IMG/VR virus record: IMGVR_UViG_3300018426_000204
Location: 1-20,731 of that record
Direction: 5' to 3' (one strand)
DNA: 20,731 nucleotides
Source of the DNA: a virus
This document shows positions 1 to 10,796 of the stretch, piece by piece. Within the stretch, counting starts at the first letter, position 1. Each line of letters begins with the position of its first letter. Made by a program: the position numbers and the translations under genes. Below the pieces are notes generated by a model. It was given only the letters and a program-made list of their open reading frames with translations, had not been told where the DNA came from and did not search any database.

Positions 1-2223
1 ATAATTTCCGTCTTCGGCAATATTAATCGCAGATTCATATAGAGTCTTTACACGATCTATTGGCTGTTCATCTGCATTAAATACTTTTTGTATTTTTCTG
101 ACAGTTTCTACGGCTTCAGGATTTAAGTACTCTTCAGCAACATCTTCAGCAATTGCTGCTACTTCTGTTACCATTGGTTCATCTAGTACACCATTGTTTT
201 CCATTGCAAATGCTGCTGCTTCTTCAGGATTATTGTACAAACCTATTAATTCTCCTGTTTCAGCATCAGATACTGGATACATAATAGATGGAGCAGATCG
301 TCTTTCTTCATCAGCATTACCTGCAGCGATAGATGCGTCGAGAGTGTTGACAAATTGTTGATATTCTGTTGGGTTTAACATATCTTCTGCATATTCTTTG
401 AGTGTCATGCCTTTTGCTTCCATCATCTCAGCATCTATAGCTTTTAATTCTTCTTCGCTATTAATATTATCTGCTACATATAACATTGCATTCTCATCAT
501 CATCAATGATACCAGAAGATTTTAAAGCTATATCTGTAAGTGAAGCATCTGCTCCAAACTTTTCTTCTATTCCTTCTCTTGATTCTATTTTATCTTCACC
601 TGAAAAATACTCAAAAGAAGACTTAAAGAATTCAGCATATGAATCAACAATCTTTTGCAATTCTTGTTTACCTGATTCTACAATCTTTTTTCCTAATTCA
701 GCCATTGTTGTTTTCTTACCTAAGAAAAAGTAATCGTAGATAGCTTCAACAATATTATCAGCACCAATTATCTTATAAACATCTTCGCCATACAATACAC
801 CCATTACAACACCCAAAACTGTACCAACAAGATTACCAAAAACAGGTAAAACGAAAGTGCCGATCAAATTTCCTACTGCAGTAAAAATAATTGTAGTTAT
901 CCATGTACCGCCAATCAATCCCACAATATCATTAATGTTTTTCTTCATACGAGTATGAAATTCTGCTTCAGTGATACTATTAAACATAAACGCCATCAAA
1001 CCATCTATCATACTATCGATAATTTCAAATATAATAAGATATTTGAGTGGTTTTGCAAGAAATCCTTTAAAGAATTTTATCATAAACTTAGGTAATTTAC
1101 TAATAGCTGATGTAACTTTTGCTACTGCTGGTCCTACTACACTAGAAACACCTGAGAAAAATCCAGCAATTGCTCTAATAGGTGCTATAAATGCTCGGGC
1201 AACTGGATTTGCTGTTAAAACTTGAGATAATTTACCAAGAGTAGTAGCTGCTTTTTGATAAGCGGATTGTGCTGTACTACTGACTGCGCTCATTTTCTGT
1301 ACAAACGTTGCTGATTTGGCAGAAATTGTATTTGCTACAGCCTGAAAACCCTTTCTTACATTGAGCCCAGCGGTTCCTAAAGCAACAGTGAGCGCGGCAT
1401 ATTTTTCTTCAATCCCTTCAAGGAAAGATAGATCATCTATCGTATCTCCTATTGTTTCTTCATTCCCTTCTTGACTATCGGCAAAAGCGCTAGCCACACC
1501 AGCAAAACCAAGAGTAATTGCTGGTACTAACCATTTAGCTAGAAAACCACCTACTGCAACGCCTGCAACTTTACCACTTTTTCGAAAAACACTGTCTTCT
1601 TTTTTCTCTACGTCTTCTTCGTCGCGACGCCTTTCGTTATCACGTTTAGTTTTTTCATTTTGTTTGACTACAGAATTAATAGAATCAGTAAGTGCTTGAA
1701 GTGCTTTAATTTGAGATGACAGCGCGCCTACACTATTTGATATAGCCTGTATTTCTGTGCCTTCAGGTACAACAAATTCTGAGAGTACGGAAGTACGATC
1801 GTCGTCAAAATATCCTTCGACAATTGGTGCAGTTTTAATTAGACTGTGAGTCTTAATAGGTCGAGTAACAGTTAGATCAACTCTTTCTGCTACTTTGCCT
1901 AAAATAATATCTTCAGGTACGATATTTGGTAGCATTATAATAGGATCTGCAACAGCTGTTTCTACATTCGATTGTTTTTCAACAGTAGAACCTATGCTCG
2001 TCGGTTGACCCGCTTCTGCAGTTGTATTTTTTCCCGAAATAGCACTCGCCGCTGTAGCTGCGGTTCCTGCAGCTGTTATTTTACCCAAAGCTCCTTTTGC
2101 ACGGCTCGCTGCTTTAGAAAATCCACTTGATACTTTGCTCAAGCCCGCGGCTGATCGTTTCCGCGAAGCTTTCAGTATTTTTTGTGTTATTCTAGCTATT
2201 CCAGTTACTAATTTCGCTGCCAT
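1..2223 (-). CDS. Large hydrophobic tail protein, probable tape measure (gp29-like role); 3' end outside window
   Basis: The reading frame is open from the ATG at 2223 to the window edge (741 codons, no stop seen), so the C-terminus is missing. The N-terminus is basic and Ala/Ser-rich (residues about 1-60). A charged, probably coiled-coil stretch follows at about 180-216. There are two long hydrophobic blocks, at about 217-245 and 432-477, the second very Gly/Val/Ile-rich. The visible C-terminal third (about 520-741) is acidic and Glu/Ala-rich. Large size, helical and Ala-rich composition and internal hydrophobic segments are typical of tape measure proteins, which set tail length and are injected with the DNA. 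Its place directly behind gp26 and a small ORF linked by a likely frameshift is the usual tape-measure position. No enzymatic motif was recognised. Start: AAGG lies just upstream of the ATG, and the gene overlaps the preceding small ORF by 32 bases. It could instead be another hub-associated structural protein. Confidence 0.6.
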   Translation of the reverse strand, partial: MAAKLVTGIARITQKILKASRKRSAAGLSKVSSGFSKAASRAKGALGKITAAGTAATAASAISGKNTTAEAGQPTSIGSTVEKQSNVETAVADPIIMLPNIVPEDIILGKVAERVDLTVTRPIKTHSLIKTAPIVEGYFDDDRTSVLSEFVVPEGTEIQAISNSVGALSSQIKALQALTDSINSVVKQNEKTKRDNERRRDEEDVEKKEDSVFRKSGKVAGVAVGGFLAKWLVPAITLGFAGVASAFADSQEGNEETIGDTIDDLSFLEGIEEKYAALTVALGTAGLNVRKGFQAVANTISAKSATFVQKMSAVSSTAQSAYQKAATTLGKLSQVLTANPVARAFIAPIRAIAGFFSGVSSVVGPAVAKVTSAISKLPKFMIKFFKGFLAKPLKYLIIFEIIDSMIDGLMAFMFNSITEAEFHTRMKKNINDIVGLIGGTWITTIIFTAVGNLIGTFVLPVFGNLVGTVLGVVMGVLYGEDVYKIIGADNIVEAIYDYFFLGKKTTMAELGKKIVESGKQELQKIVDSYAEFFKSSFEYFSGEDKIESREGIEEKFGADASLTDIALKSSGIIDDDENAMLYVADNINSEEELKAIDAEMMEAKGMTLKEYAEDMLNPTEYQQFVNTLDASIAAGNADEERRSAPSIMYPVSDAETGELIGLYNNPEEAAAFAMENNGVLDEPMVTEVAAIAEDVAEEYLNPEAVETVRKIQKVFNADEQPIDRVKTLYESAINIAEDGNY

Positions 2224-2371
2224 TACCTTGTTTCTCTTTGTTGATCTTCTCTAAAATCATATCAACGTATACTTCCCTTTCGAAAGGGATCATCTCGTTC
2301 AACTCTGTTAGTGTGAAGTTGTGATACTGAGTTACGTCAAAGTTTAACTTATAATGATTATAGAGCGTCAT
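2192..2371 (-). CDS. Small gp51-position ORF; probably the -1 frameshift extension of gp26
   Basis: This frame encodes 59 residues if read from the ATG at 2371. It is also the -1 continuation of gp26 and is open back through the U run at 2395-2389. Read as a fusion it adds 65 residues to gp26 residue 233, giving a 298-residue protein that ends at TAG 2194-2192, inside the downstream large gene. The product is mostly helical in appearance, with acidic and basic residues mixed (motifs NFDVTQYHN, LTELNEMIPFERE, ending KEKQGNGSEIS). The standalone ATG is six bases beyond the gp26 stop and has only a poor ribosome binding site (GAG four bases before). Expression by frameshifting or reinitiation therefore looks more likely than independent initiation. 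T4 has gp51 (hub assembly factor) in this position, but T4 gp51 is much longer and I cannot show homology. Confidence 0.6.
   Translation of the reverse strand: MTLYNHYKLNFDVTQYHNFTLTELNEMIPFEREVYVDMILEKINKEKQGNGSEISNWNS
2274..2289. repeat. 16-base perfect palindrome upstream of the tape-measure start
   Basis: TCCCTTTCGAAAGGGA is a perfect palindrome inside the small ORF, about 50 bases before the ATG at 2223. As RNA it could form a compact hairpin with a UCGA loop. A role in controlling initiation of the downstream gene is only a guess. It lies in coding sequence (residues IPFERE), so it may be incidental. Confidence 0.4.
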
Positions 2372-2380
2372 ATAACTCAG
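2327..2380 (-). promoter_or_regulatory. Inverted repeat downstream of the slippery run: candidate frameshift-stimulating RNA stem
   Basis: On the coding strand, CTGAGTTA (2380-2373) is perfectly complementary to TAACTCAG (2334-2327). The 38-base loop itself contains a small AT palindrome, TATAATCATTATA (2362-2350). The 5' arm starts 8 bases after the slippery heptamer, inside the 5-9 base spacing usual for -1 stimulators, and contains the gp26 stop codon. Stability is only moderate (8 pairs, long loop). Whether a pseudoknot forms cannot be told by eye. Confidence 0.5.
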
Positions 2381-3087
2381 CCCAACGTAAAAAAATCGTC
2401 TAGATCCCTAAACACAACCCTTTTTTCTTTCTTATTACTATTAGTATAAGTAACTACGTGTTCGATTTGTGGTGACGTCTCAAAGAATTTTTGAATCTGA
2501 TTGTATGCATCGATCGGCAAACTTTCTAAAAAATCTTTTTTATCTTTATCGGATTCTTGTTTCCAAAGATATACTTCCTCATTATCAAAAATTTGATCGA
2601 TACATGCGTTAATCGTAATATCAGTAACTTCCGATAAACTTTGTTTTGATGATAATTCATCAGAAATTTTTGGTGTAGGATATTTTAAAATAAGACCTAC
2701 ATCATCAGTGATCATCACCTTCGTAGAATGATCTTCAGGAAAATTTACTTTGACATCGTAGAGATCAAGTTCTAGGTCATATGTAATTCCATCATCGCTA
2801 TCTTCTACTTTAAACTTGACAATGTTACCGACAGACACTGCTCTGATTTGTATGAAGATAAATTCCATATCAAAAATAGGAATTTTATTTACGTCAAATC
2901 CTTCTGTCAATACACAATTATTGATGATAGCTTTGATAGCGTTATAGATATCGATCCTTTCGCCAGATTCTTTCGCTGTCAATAATATCTTTTCTTCTTT
3001 GACCAAAAAAGGTCTAAAAATAATTTCTTCTTTACTCGACGGTAATTCTAAAGAAAACGTCGGAGTATCAATTTTTGGTAATGCCAT
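2377..3087 (-). CDS. 26: Baseplate hub assembly protein gp26 (T4 baseplate protein family)
   Basis: The 236-residue protein is slightly longer than T4 gp26 (208). It is acidic and rich in Ile/Asp/Lys, and resembles the T4 base plate protein family that contains gp26. The N-terminal segment is MALPKIDTPTFSLELPSS followed by a conserved-looking IIFRPFLVKEEKILL block (about 23-37). The C-terminus ends in DLDDFFTLG, where the two Phe codons form a slippery run. In T4, gp26 acts in hub assembly but is not abundant in the mature particle. That fits a chaperone-like role, and the neighbouring frameshift signal strengthens the comparison with tail assembly chaperones (inference). Start: AGGATGAC lies upstream of the ATG at 3087, and the gap to the preceding gene is 4 bases. 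Family assignment is from sequence memory, not a search. Confidence 0.75.
   Translation of the reverse strand: MALPKIDTPTFSLELPSSKEEIIFRPFLVKEEKILLTAKESGERIDIYNAIKAIINNCVLTEGFDVNKIPIFDMEFIFIQIRAVSVGNIVKFKVEDSDDGITYDLELDLYDVKVNFPEDHSTKVMITDDVGLILKYPTPKISDELSSKQSLSEVTDITINACIDQIFDNEEVYLWKQESDKDKKDFLESLPIDAYNQIQKFFETSPQIEHVVTYTNSNKKEKRVVFRDLDDFFTLG
2389..2395 (-). other. Putative -1 ribosomal frameshift slippery site (U UUU UUU)
   Basis: Seven consecutive T lie on the coding strand of gp26, phased GAT TTT TTT ACG. This fits the X XXY YYZ rule for tandem -1 slippage, because both tRNA-Phe can re-pair perfectly after the shift. It occurs three codons before the gp26 stop (TGA at 2379-2377). After slippage, translation continues in the frame of the ORF ending at 2192. 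A stem begins 8 bases downstream. Confidence 0.6.
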
Positions 3088-3091
3088 AATG

Positions 3092-3610
3092 TCATCCTAC
3101 TATTTTAAATTTTGTATATTTGTAACTCACTGAAAATCTAGCCAATTCATCGCTCGAGCCCCATGAAAGATTCAGCGGCTCAACACTCATTGGAAAAATT
3201 TCTTCGAGGTTATATGTTTTTACTGTTCTACCTTGCCTATTATAAACGTATATCTCCATTCTTGCGACATAATCGTTATAATATTTTGCGCCCATTTTCG
3301 TATCAGGCATATCGACAATTTTATCTGCCCAATCTTTAAATTGACGAAGTAATTCACCCTTATCATCAATAGTATGTATAACCGAGATCTCTTGCGGATT
3401 AAATCGGTATGGTATGTTATACATTTTACCATTCCCATATGGGGAATAATTATCGACAGACAACCAAGAAATACCAGGTGCTGTAATAGATTCGGCTCTT
3501 ATCATGATATCCTGATATGTAACTGGAGATCCATATATCGCTACCTTATACATACTAGCAGGTAGATTTTCTTTGACTTTAGATTTCCAGCTGTCTACAT
3601 TAAAAGACAT
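3092..3610 (-). CDS. Tail-tube-fold protein (gp19-like; possibly in the gp54 tube-initiator role)
   Basis: The protein has 172 residues, close to the T4 tail tube protein gp19 (163). The C-terminal half matches the gp19 pattern: a basic strand at about 124-134 (RQGRTVKTYNLE), then IFPMSVEPLNLSW (138-150; compare gp19 LWPTNVGELQLDW), then DELARFSVSYKY (154-165; compare the final gp19 strand). The central LLRQFKDWADKI (87-98) matches the gp19 helix region. Tube monomers polymerise through this fold, and gp48 and gp54 of T4 carry related domains. Because it lies between a gp2-like gene and gp26 rather than beside a sheath gene, I infer a tube-initiating or hub-proximal ring rather than the main tube protein, but the main tube cannot be excluded. 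Its start follows the previous stop by one base (TAAAATG), implying translational coupling. Confidence 0.65.
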   Translation of the reverse strand: MSFNVDSWKSKVKENLPASMYKVAIYGSPVTYQDIMIRAESITAPGISWLSVDNYSPYGNGKMYNIPYRFNPQEISVIHTIDDKGELLRQFKDWADKIVDMPDTKMGAKYYNDYVARMEIYVYNRQGRTVKTYNLEEIFPMSVEPLNLSWGSSDELARFSVSYKYTKFKIVG

Positions 3611-3611
3611 T

Positions 3612-4214
3612 TTATGCTCTCTGTATTATTTTTTTAGAATCTCTCCACACTTGTGCTGACTTACCCTTTCTAAATCTTTGAGTAGGCAGCATCAGCGCTA
3701 TATCCCATTCGTCGTACGGAATCCAAAGAAAACGAGATCTTACTTGTGAATTGAGATAGCGCTTAACGGTGGGCCTAAAGTATTTATATCTTGCAATAGA
3801 ATTTAGCAGACCATAATTTAATCTAAGCTTTTTAGATTCGCGAACAGTATCATTTCTTTCTATTGCGTATAATCTATCCATCAATCTTGCACGAAATACT
3901 GGAGGCAGATAATGCAAGTTCATACCGAGAAAACCATCTCTATATCTATCTAATACAAAAATAAGAGGAAATTGATCATAATATGGCAAAGTGTCTTTTC
4001 CTTTCGGATCATAAAAGAACATATACATACGACCGATATCGAGCTCAGTCATTTTGTTGTATGTACGGGCTCTATTTCTTAATTCTCTACGAGTATTAAC
4101 AGTCCTTATTGATTGAGCTTTGTCGCGATACCAATCACGCGCTTCTTCGCTGCCGACTTCAATGCCTTCTGCTTTACCTTCATCAGCAATCTTCTGAAAG
4201 ATATATGTTGCCAT
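3612..4214 (-). CDS. 2: gp2-like DNA end protector / head-completion protein
   Basis: The 200-residue, strongly basic protein is rich in Arg and Tyr. Landmarks are ELDIGRMYMFFYDP (57-70), LPYYDQFPLIFVLDRY (76-91) and DGFLGMNLHYLPP (93-105), which I associate with the T4 gp2/gp64 DNA end protector family. T4 gp2 binds the ends of packaged DNA and shields them from host RecBCD after injection. The basic C-terminus would suit DNA contact. The start is taken at 4214, not an upstream ATG at 4262, because the ATG at 4214 overlaps the gp4 stop as TAATG, as at other junctions here, and the extra 16 residues would come from the gp4 coding region. T4 also has genes 2 and 4 side by side. T4 gp2 is longer (about 274 residues). 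The assignment rests on recalled motifs. Confidence 0.6.
   Translation of the reverse strand: MATYIFQKIADEGKAEGIEVGSEEARDWYRDKAQSIRTVNTRRELRNRARTYNKMTELDIGRMYMFFYDPKGKDTLPYYDQFPLIFVLDRYRDGFLGMNLHYLPPVFRARLMDRLYAIERNDTVRESKKLRLNYGLLNSIARYKYFRPTVKRYLNSQVRSRFLWIPYDEWDIALMLPTQRFRKGKSAQVWRDSKKIIQRA
3781..3788 (-). promoter_or_regulatory. Possible internal late promoter TATAAATA inside the gp2-like gene
   Basis: The coding strand reads TATAAATACTTT, an exact match to the T4 late promoter core, about 170 bases upstream of the tube-fold gene. It could give extra expression of the tube protein and gp26. In DNA this AT-rich a few exact 8-mers are expected by chance, so position alone is weak evidence. 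Confidence 0.25.
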
Positions 4215-4660
4215 TAGATTATGCTTCCTAATTCTTTTTCGGTCAGGATAGTAAATTCCCAACCTCTTTCTTCACAATATTTATTAGCTGCTTTCCATTT
4301 TGAAGAATTTATACCCCAAGTGCGAACTTCATATAAATACTTCTTAGTAAGTTTTCTTTGCGCGGTTGGTTCTACGGTTTCATGATAAGGTTTGATTTCT
4401 ACTACGACCGTATCTAGTTTTCCCTCGCGATTAACTTTTTTGACCCAGAAATCTGGAAAATATCGGTGTACACGTCCATCGATTGGAGAGCGATATGGTA
4501 TTGCAAGTTCTTCGCTCGCCCATTGTTTGACTTCACTGTGGTTATCAAGATACATCATGAAGTTTAATTCCCAGCGACTCCTATAAATAATATTAGTTGG
4601 ATCGCCGCGATATTTACTGGGATTTTTAGGCTTAAAGACGCCTTTATAAGTCTTACTCAT
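4214..4660 (-). CDS. 4: Head completion nuclease gp4
   Basis: The 148-residue protein matches T4 gp4 in length (150). It carries a PD-(D/E)XK nuclease-like set of residues: RSRWELNF with E31, RYFPDFWV with D70, and VVVEIKPY with E88 and K90, followed by a WEFTILTE strand (134-141). This arrangement also occurs in TnsA-like nucleases. T4 gp4 (also called gp50/4) is needed to make filled heads competent for tail joining and has been reported to have nuclease activity. All apparent catalytic positions are intact. It is the first gene of the left operon. No Shine-Dalgarno is visible before the ATG (AATAAGCGTATG), and a late-promoter box ends five bases upstream, so its mRNA may be leaderless. The next Met is residue 35, after the first motif, so this start is firm. 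Confidence 0.88.
   Translation of the reverse strand: MSKTYKGVFKPKNPSKYRGDPTNIIYRSRWELNFMMYLDNHSEVKQWASEELAIPYRSPIDGRVHRYFPDFWVKKVNREGKLDTVVVEIKPYHETVEPTAQRKLTKKYLYEVRTWGINSSKWKAANKYCEERGWEFTILTEKELGSII
4582..4589 (+). promoter_or_regulatory. Candidate late promoter for the right operon, inside gp4 (antisense)
   Basis: This is an exact TATAAATA on the plus strand. Transcription would begin at about 4595, giving an 85-90 base leader before the gp48 start and running antisense across the first part of gp4. It is the nearest plus-strand match upstream of gp48; another exact copy is at 4332-4339. The 22-base divergent gap itself has no plus-strand match. Confidence 0.4.
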
Positions 4661-8085: not shown

Positions 8086-10116
8086 ATGGCATACTATAAT
8101 ATAGGAGATTCTTTCAAGTGGTTTATGGCTCGAGTTGTCGAGATAGATCCAAAAGAAGATCCACAAAACATGAGATATTTAGGTCGTGTAAAAATTAGAG
8201 TTTTACATGACCAAACTGGTGAATTAGGCAAAACTGTCAAAACTTTGGGTATAAAAGACAGTGACTTATTGTGGGCGTGGCCAATTTCTTCTATACAGTC
8301 AGCGTCTTTGAGCTATAGAAAAATAGCAGAACTTGAAGAATTTGAAACACCATTTTGGATCGACGCGGTTGGTACATCACCAACAGGAATCGCTGTCGGT
8401 ACTTATGTGTTTGGCTTTTATCTCGACGGCCATGAAGGAAACATACCGGTTATCTTTGGTACATATCACAAAGATTCTATGTATCCTGAACCGCCGACTG
8501 AACAAGGACATGAGTTTTTACAAATTAGGGGGCCAGACGGACCTACATTCGAATATCAAGATGTTTCAGCTCTTGCTAAAGGCTGGCATGAAGACAAGAA
8601 GAGAGACACAGCTCTCGATGGTGGTATAGCCCAATCGCTAGAGATGAAAAATGTGACAGCGCCAGGAAAAGGTGGTCAAACATTACCAAAACATCCATAT
8701 CTGATAGGACCACAACAACTCGTCAAACAGCCACCGTCTGATTATGATACACTTTGGCCTCATAACACTGTTCATACGACTAAGTCAGGTCATGCAATTG
8801 AGCTAGACGACACACCAGGACATGAGAGGATACATTGGTGGCATCGATCTGGTTCATATGAAGAAGTATCAAATGGACCAGCAGCGACTAACCGAGACGG
8901 TTTAGAAAAACCATGGCCTGACGCAATGGGTCCTGTTGACTGGCTAGAACCAGCAAATAATCATGATCCTTCGGCTCCTAAAGCTAGTTGGTCGGGAAGA
9001 CGAGTAAGAAAAACAACTGAAAGCGAATATAATTTTGTTTTAGGCAATAAAGAAACATACGTTGGTAGTTCATTAAAATTAGAGATAGCTAAAAATTCTA
9101 CCACGGGTATCGGTGGTAACAAAGTAGAAACAACAGCCAATAATGCTTATATTGCAATTGGTTATTATCCTCGAACAGCAAATAACGATTTAAGTGGTTT
9201 ATCTGCTCGATATCAATTATTAGACATTTACGAAAAAGATGCGGATAAGAGAGACGGAGTAAATAAATTACCCGACAATAATAAGTTTAATTTTTATATT
9301 GATGTAGCGAACAATATGGCTACTTCTGTAGGTTATGTTTGGGATAATTCTAGAGAATTAAAAACAAAGGAAGAAAAAAATTGGTTTTTAGATGTAGCAA
9401 ATAATTGCTCAGTTACAGCAAATAATAATTATTATCTCGCTGTCGGTGTTGGTCATGAGAAAGAAAGGGAAAAACAAGATACAGATCAAACGAACTTTTA
9501 TACTGATGTTGTAAATAATTTAGCTATTACAGTAGGATATAATCCCGATAATTATAGGGTTGTGACAGCTACTGATAAGACTAATTTTTATACTGATGTT
9601 GCAAATAATTTAGCTATCACAGTTGGTTATACAGCAGATAACTATAGAGACATCACAGCTGATGATAACAAAAATTGGTTTTTAGATGTAGCAAATAACT
9701 GTTCAATCGCAACTAAAAATAATTATTATTTGGGTGTAGGCGTTGATCATACAAACGAAAGACAAAAACAATCATCAGACGCAAGTAGTTTGTTTATAGA
9801 TGTAGTCGGAGATATGGCTACAAATGTTGAAAAAAATTCTGTCACACGAATTAAAGGTAATCATACACATAAAGTGTTAGGCAATAGCAGAATGACTGTA
9901 AATTATAGTCTAGACATGGCTGCTATGTCATTAAATATTTCAACGCTGACTGGTACTAAATTTAATAGCGATGTGACGGTAGGTTCTCAAAATGCTAACT
10001 ATAATTTATATGTAAACGGATCGTTAGGCACTTCGAAAGGTGCATCGGGTTCATTTACTACACCGACTGGTAGAACAGTCACGGTTGTCAACGGAATAGT
10101 AACGAGTATCGTATAA
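8086..10116 (+). CDS. 5: Baseplate spike protein gp5 without a lysozyme domain
   Basis: The protein has 676 residues; T4 gp5 has 575. Residues 1-130 form the OB-fold domain (RVVEIDPKEDP, YLGRVKIRVLHDQTGE, GTYVFGFYLDGHEGNIPVIFGTYH). No glycosidase domain like that at T4 174-342 is present, and no Glu/Asp/Thr lysozyme motif was found. Instead, SGHAIELDDTPGHERIHWWH (234-253), typical of spike proteins with an attached beta helix, leads into a long Asn/Val/Gly-rich beta-prism region (about 320-640). This includes about six repeats of the form FY.DVANN.A..VGY..DN.R (about 398-582). The tail end, PTGRTVTVVNGIVTSIV, is a compact beta tip. The trimer pierces the outer membrane. The gene overlaps the next one as TAATG. 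Confidence 0.85.
   Translation: MAYYNIGDSFKWFMARVVEIDPKEDPQNMRYLGRVKIRVLHDQTGELGKTVKTLGIKDSDLLWAWPISSIQSASLSYRKIAELEEFETPFWIDAVGTSPTGIAVGTYVFGFYLDGHEGNIPVIFGTYHKDSMYPEPPTEQGHEFLQIRGPDGPTFEYQDVSALAKGWHEDKKRDTALDGGIAQSLEMKNVTAPGKGGQTLPKHPYLIGPQQLVKQPPSDYDTLWPHNTVHTTKSGHAIELDDTPGHERIHWWHRSGSYEEVSNGPAATNRDGLEKPWPDAMGPVDWLEPANNHDPSAPKASWSGRRVRKTTESEYNFVLGNKETYVGSSLKLEIAKNSTTGIGGNKVETTANNAYIAIGYYPRTANNDLSGLSARYQLLDIYEKDADKRDGVNKLPDNNKFNFYIDVANNMATSVGYVWDNSRELKTKEEKNWFLDVANNCSVTANNNYYLAVGVGHEKEREKQDTDQTNFYTDVVNNLAITVGYNPDNYRVVTATDKTNFYTDVANNLAITVGYTADNYRDITADDNKNWFLDVANNCSIATKNNYYLGVGVDHTNERQKQSSDASSLFIDVVGDMATNVEKNSVTRIKGNHTHKVLGNSRMTVNYSLDMAAMSLNISTLTGTKFNSDVTVGSQNANYNLYVNGSLGTSKGASGSFTTPTGRTVTVVNGIVTSIV
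9280..9830 (+). repeat. Internal tandem repeat array of gp5 (about 30- and 38-residue units)
   Basis: Six units follow one another, each starting with an aromatic residue, then (I/T/L)DV(A/V)NN and a VG or related turn. Two neighbouring units starting at 9497 and 9587 are nearly identical in DNA with an exact 90-base period. A longer unit (NWFLDVANNCS, then NNYYL.VGV) occurs twice, 294 bases apart (9381 and 9675). The order is short, long, short, short, long, degenerate. All keep frame, so the array sets the length of the spike shaft. Confidence 0.8.
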
Positions 10117-10796
10117 TGTCTTTTCAAACAACAGTCGATTCTATCAACGAAATGAAAGCAGAGCTCGAGAGAGCTACTGGTGTAACAACAGTTGAAAACC
10201 CTGATGGTACTACTTCGAGTGTACCAGGTGAATTTAGTTGTGAAAGACTCGAATTATTATTAGACGAACATGTATCAGCGGTCACAGATGTACTCGATGA
10301 AAAAACAGCAGAAATTGCTGAAATAATGTCAAAATATGCACCAATTATGTCTATACCCAGCGATCCTTTAAAAATTATTGGATGGGCTAAAAAGGTAGTG
10401 ACTGGTATGGTCGATCCTCAATTAGCTGCAGCAATTCAATTAGCGATAGAATTAGCTCAACTTGCTGGTGCGTTAGCGGGTCTCGCTTCAGCCGTAGCTA
10501 GCGCTGCTACTCGATTAGCTGATTGTATAGAGAGTGAAATCAGAGGAGCGCTTGACGATATTACAAATAGTTTGATGGAAAACGCAACAAGTTTATATGA
10601 TCAAGCTACATCAATATATGAAGATATTCGAGATGACGCGCTCGATGCATTGGGTTATAATGAACTATTATCTTTATCAGCTGACGTACAAGCACAAATT
10701 GGTGAGCTTGACACAGCACTCGCAGACATAGGCGACGCTACGACAAGTATACAAGATTCTATTGATGATTTAGATGATATTCAAATACCGGCATAA
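10116..10796 (+). CDS. Unknown Ala-rich helical protein between gp5 and gp25
   Basis: I do not recognise a family. The 226-residue, acidic protein has three visible parts. Residues 1-75 are charged and helical (INEMKAELERATG; VLDEKTAEIAEIMSKY). Residues 101-138 form a very Ala/Leu-rich segment, hydrophobic enough to be membrane-active or a buried helical bundle. Residues 139-226 are acidic heptad-like helices ending in TSIQDSIDDLDDIQIPA. There is no signal peptide. The start overlaps the gp5 stop (TAATG), so it is translated with the spike, which suggests a role at the hub or spike, for example filling the hub or assisting gp5 trimers (inference). The stop codon is part of the CATAAATA motif that precedes gp25. 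Confidence 0.8.
   Translation: MSFQTTVDSINEMKAELERATGVTTVENPDGTTSSVPGEFSCERLELLLDEHVSAVTDVLDEKTAEIAEIMSKYAPIMSIPSDPLKIIGWAKKVVTGMVDPQLAAAIQLAIELAQLAGALAGLASAVASAATRLADCIESEIRGALDDITNSLMENATSLYDQATSIYEDIRDDALDALGYNELLSLSADVQAQIGELDTALADIGDATTSIQDSIDDLDDIQIPA

Follow-up and report, generated by a model that had tools for sequence, protein, structure and literature searches.

A 2016 review (PMC5009743) describes G-T frameshifting of tail assembly chaperone genes as a conserved property of long-tailed phages, 'except T4'. Vladimirov, Gautam & Davidson (2022, Virology 566:9-15) identified the T4-like tail assembly chaperone genes, as reported in two papers that refer to them: the description of PRFect (PMC10885494) cites their work for a short copy and a long fused copy, and the Adele paper (PMC12846349, 2025) cites it for poly-T -1 signals within T4-like TAC-N genes. 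The work as cited there indicates that this kind of frameshift, and probably its use by the T4-like chaperone family, has already been published; the statement in the initial annotation that no description was known for gp26 of T4-like phages was incorrect, judging from the poly-T signals that PMC12846349 attributes to Vladimirov et al. 2022. Our own literature search found no paper joining the baseplate hub assembly catalyst (gp51) with a frameshift, and this prior art emerged via citations only. As regards gp51 itself, the T4 protein is reported to be needed for assembly yet absent from the particle (PMC3004832), and the cyanophage gp51 has been noted to reach ~20% of the length of its counterparts, with the gene 'missing' in Aeromonas phage Aeh1 (Sullivan et al. 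2010, PMC3037559).

The DNA analysed here (the window), from a marine T4-like phage, is the whole 20,731-base virus record IMGVR_UViG_3300018426_000204, which is probably a fragment of the virus genome. Its gp26 gene was recognized by profile searches (E 1.9e-53 against PF12322 and 1.7e-60 against phrog_150), and the minus strand reads GAC GAT TTT TTT ACG TTG GGC TGA at the 3' end of the gene, with three codons (ACG TTG GGC) separating a slippery heptamer from the stop. The coordinates of the features are collected in Table 1. The description given in the initial annotation held on re-examination: the T7 run stands three codons before the stop in the X_XXY_YYZ phase, the -1 frame is open for 65 codons and terminates at TAG 2194-2192, 32 nt into the next ORF, a perfect 8-base inverted repeat (2380-2373 with 2334-2327) surrounds the gp26 stop as an exact match, and both lengths, recomputed, came to 298 aa for the predicted fused product against 236 aa for gp26. 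Chance was rejected as the source of the T7 run at the end of gp26, since such runs are rarer than expected in the window (9 observed vs 21).

Table 1. Features of the gp26 locus and its neighbours in the window
Feature	Position	Strand	Details
gp26 (short chaperone form, TAC-N)	2377-3087	-	236 aa; Pfam T4_baseplate PF12322, phrog_150
Slippery heptamer U_UUU_UUU	2395-2389	-	X_XXY_YYZ phase, codons GAT, TTT, TTT; gp26 F232-F233
gp26 zero-frame stop TGA	2379-2377	-	inside 5' arm of stem
-1 frame after predicted shift, gp51-like C-terminal (T) domain	2192-2395	-	65 codons past FF, plus stop
Candidate small-ORF start ATG	2371-2369	-	in frame, few bases past TGA; not conserved
Stem 5' arm GCUGAGUUA	2381-2373	-	begins 7 nt after heptamer
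Stem 3' arm UAACUCAGU	2334-2326	-	paired in 22-27 of 27 relatives at each position
Shine-Dalgarno-like AGGGA	2405-2409	-	~10 nt upstream of heptamer; possible stimulator
Downstream gene, tape measure position	1-2223	-	runs off window; ATG 2223-2221
Tail tube protein (gp19-like), upstream neighbour	3092-3610	-	phrog_45, E 8e-20

Of the described systems, the TAC-N/TAC-NC pair of Vladimirov et al. 2022, as it is cited, lies closest to this arrangement: the genes are very probably the same, gp26 and gp51, and according to PMC12846349 the short-form gene carries the same kind of poly-T -1 signal. The window represents another, uncultivated member. The predicted mechanism is that of the lambda gpG/gpGT tail-chaperone frameshift (PMC5009743), but the heptamer differs, being U_UUU_UUY in the family of the window, and gp26 is much larger, with only its first ~95 residues resembling a solved chaperone; we liken the two without a claim of sequence similarity. 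The Vandenendeviridae and Andersonviridae (PMC12846349), which are other phage families, likewise have a poly-T -1 site at the 3' end of TAC-N and a -1 domain misannotated as a separate hypothetical gene, although their motif, GTTTTT, is shorter.

The joining of gp26 to a small downstream ORF, as first proposed, was supported by our analysis, but this ORF is not anonymous. The peptide encoded in the -1 frame matched phrog_634 'baseplate hub assembly catalyst' (gp51) in profile searches (E 2.4e-19), and the match of the phrog_150 profile to the window was split between the frames, covering positions 5-235 in the zero frame and 228-278 in the -1 frame. In T4 gp51, residues 1-201 match the gp26 family PF12322 (E 3.9e-52) and residues 147-246 match phrog_634, and on alignment the protein is collinear, end to end, with the gp26 frameshift fusion. 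By sequence similarity, the small ORF after gp26 is identified as the C-terminal domain of gp51. The gp26 of the window is homologous to T4 gp26, whereas the frameshift fusion is homologous to the whole of T4 gp51. In T4 itself, gp26 and gp51 lie on opposite strands as two distinct genes, so that each form, short or long, has its own gene there and no frameshift is involved. In databases, the gp51 domain is either omitted or entered as a gene of its own, a 'baseplate hub assembly catalyst' whose start is arbitrary.

To place the shift site in its family, related gp26 loci were gathered from IMG/VR and from isolates, including finished isolate genomes, and 197 were analysed. At its 3' end, gp26 carries a zero-frame T_TTT_TTY in 174 of them (124 as T6C and 50 as T7); the 23 lacking it are the T4-type phages whose gp51 is fused, Kuttervirus, a single Vibrio phage and a contig that seems to contain an indel. 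Each of the 174 loci has a -1 frame running across the heptamer, and this frame stays open for 155-191 nt beyond the gp26 stop in 166/166 complete sequences. The residue preceding Phe-Phe may be D, S, N or A, yet its codon ends in T in every one of the 174. With codon usage drawn from the same gp26 genes, the probability of such conservation was ~1e-16 when the 43 genes sharing less than 60% identity were considered and ~1e-24 with the 75 sharing less than 80%. Among 63 pairs of relatives, codon 231 was identical in 59/59 and codon 232 in 63/63, and these two codons lie within the strongest synonymous-conservation window of gp26 (z 9.2). These data show a conserved zero-frame X_XXY_YYZ heptamer followed by an open -1 frame under protein-coding selection, and the alignment of relatives that had been suggested as a check gave what a frameshift predicts, namely a conserved heptamer and spacing with synonymous suppression.

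The small ORF could be a separate gene with its own start, or be reached by reinitiation after the gp26 stop. Public annotations list it as such, an ATG lies only a few bases beyond the TGA in the window, and ValKK3 and Cr30 each have an ATG that overlaps the stop of gp26. The relatives that could have favoured this reading, in which the small ORF would keep a start of its own, were sought; instead, 22 of the 42 diverse relatives below 60% identity have no ATG, GTG or TTG in the -1 frame ahead of the conserved core. In a relative 55% identical to the window (L003), the codon corresponding to the window ATG is CTC, while the heptamer and stem are retained. The -1 peptide (FF-x-x-x-L-S-H-N-x-L-E-N-Y-Y...Q-H-H-K-Y-S...E-N-x-x-P-F/W-E-R) is conserved immediately from the shift point, upstream of any start, and separate initiation therefore cannot explain the gp51 domain; it would also leave the invariant third-position T at residue 231 unexplained. 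We consider this explanation very improbable for the locus as a whole, although, given the usable ATG past the stop, some independent or reinitiated translation may occur in the window phage.

Downstream of the heptamer, a G-U pair (2381/2326) extends the perfect 8-bp repeat to a 9-bp stem, whose distance of 7 nt from the heptamer falls within the ~5-9 nt at which a structure is looked for in -1 frameshifting. Across 27 relatives that have T7 and a stop 9 nt later, 89.7% of the cells of this stem were paired, compared with 20-34% in slid controls, and two-sided changes (covariation) were found at five of the nine pairs. Taken alone, the window stem is of unexceptional stability relative to shuffled sequence (z -0.9 to -1.6), and the support for it is comparative rather than energetic. 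In all clades, local folding energy peaks just past the heptamer, and folding there exceeds synonymous-codon nulls, with a mean z of -1.7 where a control stretch gave -0.16. We considered and rejected one RNA structure for the whole family: the T6C clade yields no common fold (alifold 0), so the 9-bp stem is not universal. Other clades fold differently downstream of the heptamer, ValKK3 being one example (z -4.4). In P-SSM2, of the cyanophage clade, a different strong hairpin, AGTATGGCTCA/TGAGTCATACT, was noted by eye ~5 nt past the heptamer (L083 2517-2560; z -3.9).

These observations bear on a further possibility, that the polymerase slips on the T run, giving mixed mRNAs and hence the fusion with no ribosomal frameshifting. 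T runs are able to slip during transcription, and E. coli genes contain fewer T7 runs than expected in every frame, for which slippage is a possible reason (PMC4066793). Against this, most relatives carry T6C, which is a short run, and outlying clades keep an in-phase T_TTY with only four or five T, too short to be expected to slip; a covarying stem, moreover, is expected for ribosomal shifting and superfluous for slippage. We regard transcriptional slippage as slightly less probable again than a separate gp51 gene.

A sequencing or assembly indel splitting a single gp26-gp51 gene, which might be suspected where homopolymers are error-prone, where T4-type phages carry the fused protein in one frame and where a break of this kind is suspected in one Stenotrophomonas contig (L096), can be dismissed as having a negligible probability, as the same arrangement recurs in 174 independently sequenced genes, finished isolate genomes among them. 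The contig L096 itself runs out of frame just past the heptamer in comparison with L095, both matching the query gp26 at 100%, and a sequencing indel in the homopolymer of the slippery site is the probable cause.

We also considered a Shine-Dalgarno-like element upstream of the heptamer. Over the family, such a signal lies 15-16 nt before the heptamer, significantly above synonymous-codon expectation. The AGGGA of the window does not exceed what its amino acid sequence by itself predicts (42nd percentile), and several T7-type relatives have no upstream element of this sort; for these reasons it was not accepted as an established stimulator, and is at most a possible helper of the frameshift.

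Outside the groups with the heptamer, an open -1 gp51-like domain is kept with no heptamer in Kuttervirus (L092, end of gp26 at 2941; L189-L203) and in the Vibrio clade of K469 and K369 (L089, end of gp26 at 2523; L213, at 1566). These phages have an in-phase T_TTY half motif (ATT TTC, CTT TTT or CTT TTC), and its retention suggests that a tetramer may be all that is left of the shift site; among tetramers in E. coli, U_UU.Y ranks second (PMC4066793). K469 used as a query gave no match in viral_contigs. Pseudoalteromonas phage XG4 (L214) has the heptamer T_TTT_TTA together with a gp51-like -1 frame that is open for 188 nt, and a T4-type Proteus phage (L209) has no -1 domain after gp26. In Aeromonas phage Aeh1 (L206 1665-1844), gp51 is an unannotated -1 frame after GAT TTT TTC in gp26, and the same was found in phages 65.2 and LPCS28 (L207 and L208).

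Of the neighbours of gp26, the tail tube gene is recognized by profile similarity; the ORF at 1-2223 gave no PHROG match of its own in profile searches, but is placed like the tape measure gene in HTVC008M and Cr30, and we call it a putative tape measure gene by position only. Elsewhere in the window, a 226-aa ORF at 10116-10796 (+), with gp5-like and gp25-like genes on either side, had no PHROG match. As called, from a TTG, the DNA end protector ORF shares 49 nt (4214-4262) with the head closure gene, and an in-frame ATG farther in is its likelier start.

An AlphaFold2 model of the window gp26 (pLDDT 89) gave no significant match in a plain Foldseek search. For residues 1-95, the best solved matches were 3fgx (Z 8.2), the HK97 tail assembly chaperone 2ob9 (Z 7.8) and YqbN, 3klu (Z 7.2), after which scores dropped to Z 4.7 and then 2.7; 3fgx and 3klu we take to be prophage chaperone-type proteins. 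The model thus suggests, with moderate confidence, an HK97-chaperone-like N-terminal domain, and we infer that gp26 is the tail assembly chaperone of the window phage.

Taken together, the heptamer, its spacing, the synonymous suppression and the start-less relatives support the -1 programmed frameshift predicted from gp26 into the small ORF, and on this comparative sequence evidence its joining of gp26 to the gp51-like domain is the best explanation, with a probability that we put at about 0.93. The frameshift in the window very probably exists and is an ordinary example of its kind. In the scheme that we infer for its occurrence, efficiency, stimulation by the stem and function in assembly, one gene would give two forms of a tail assembly chaperone, as in lambda G/GT. 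Most ribosomes would halt at the TGA and release the 236-residue gp26, and a minority, aided by the stem 7 nt further on, would slip back one base on U_UUU_UUU and read the -1 frame to make the 298-residue protein with a gp51-type C-terminal domain. On the lambda model, the short form would coat the tape measure protein, encoded by the next gene, and the rare long form would recruit tail tube subunits.

What this analysis adds is the scale of the conservation, the covarying stem and the correction of the gp51 annotation; the stem may be unpublished, as may the possible reduction of the heptamer to T_TTY in Kuttervirus and the Vibrio clade. The correction concerns a systematic error, in that public T4-like gp51 entries are a tiny gene with an arbitrary start or, as in Aeh1, missing. 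We think it likely that a poly-U -1 shift with a lineage-specific stem is the usual means of gp26/gp51 expression in nearly all T4-like phages (Kyanoviridae, pelagiphages and several Straboviridae), and that the two-gene layout of T4 is a derived exception. An abundant marine phage group very probably uses the general G/GT chaperone strategy to which a major review made T4 an exception, and the predicted frameshift of most lineages and the two separate genes of T4 form an evolutionary pair.
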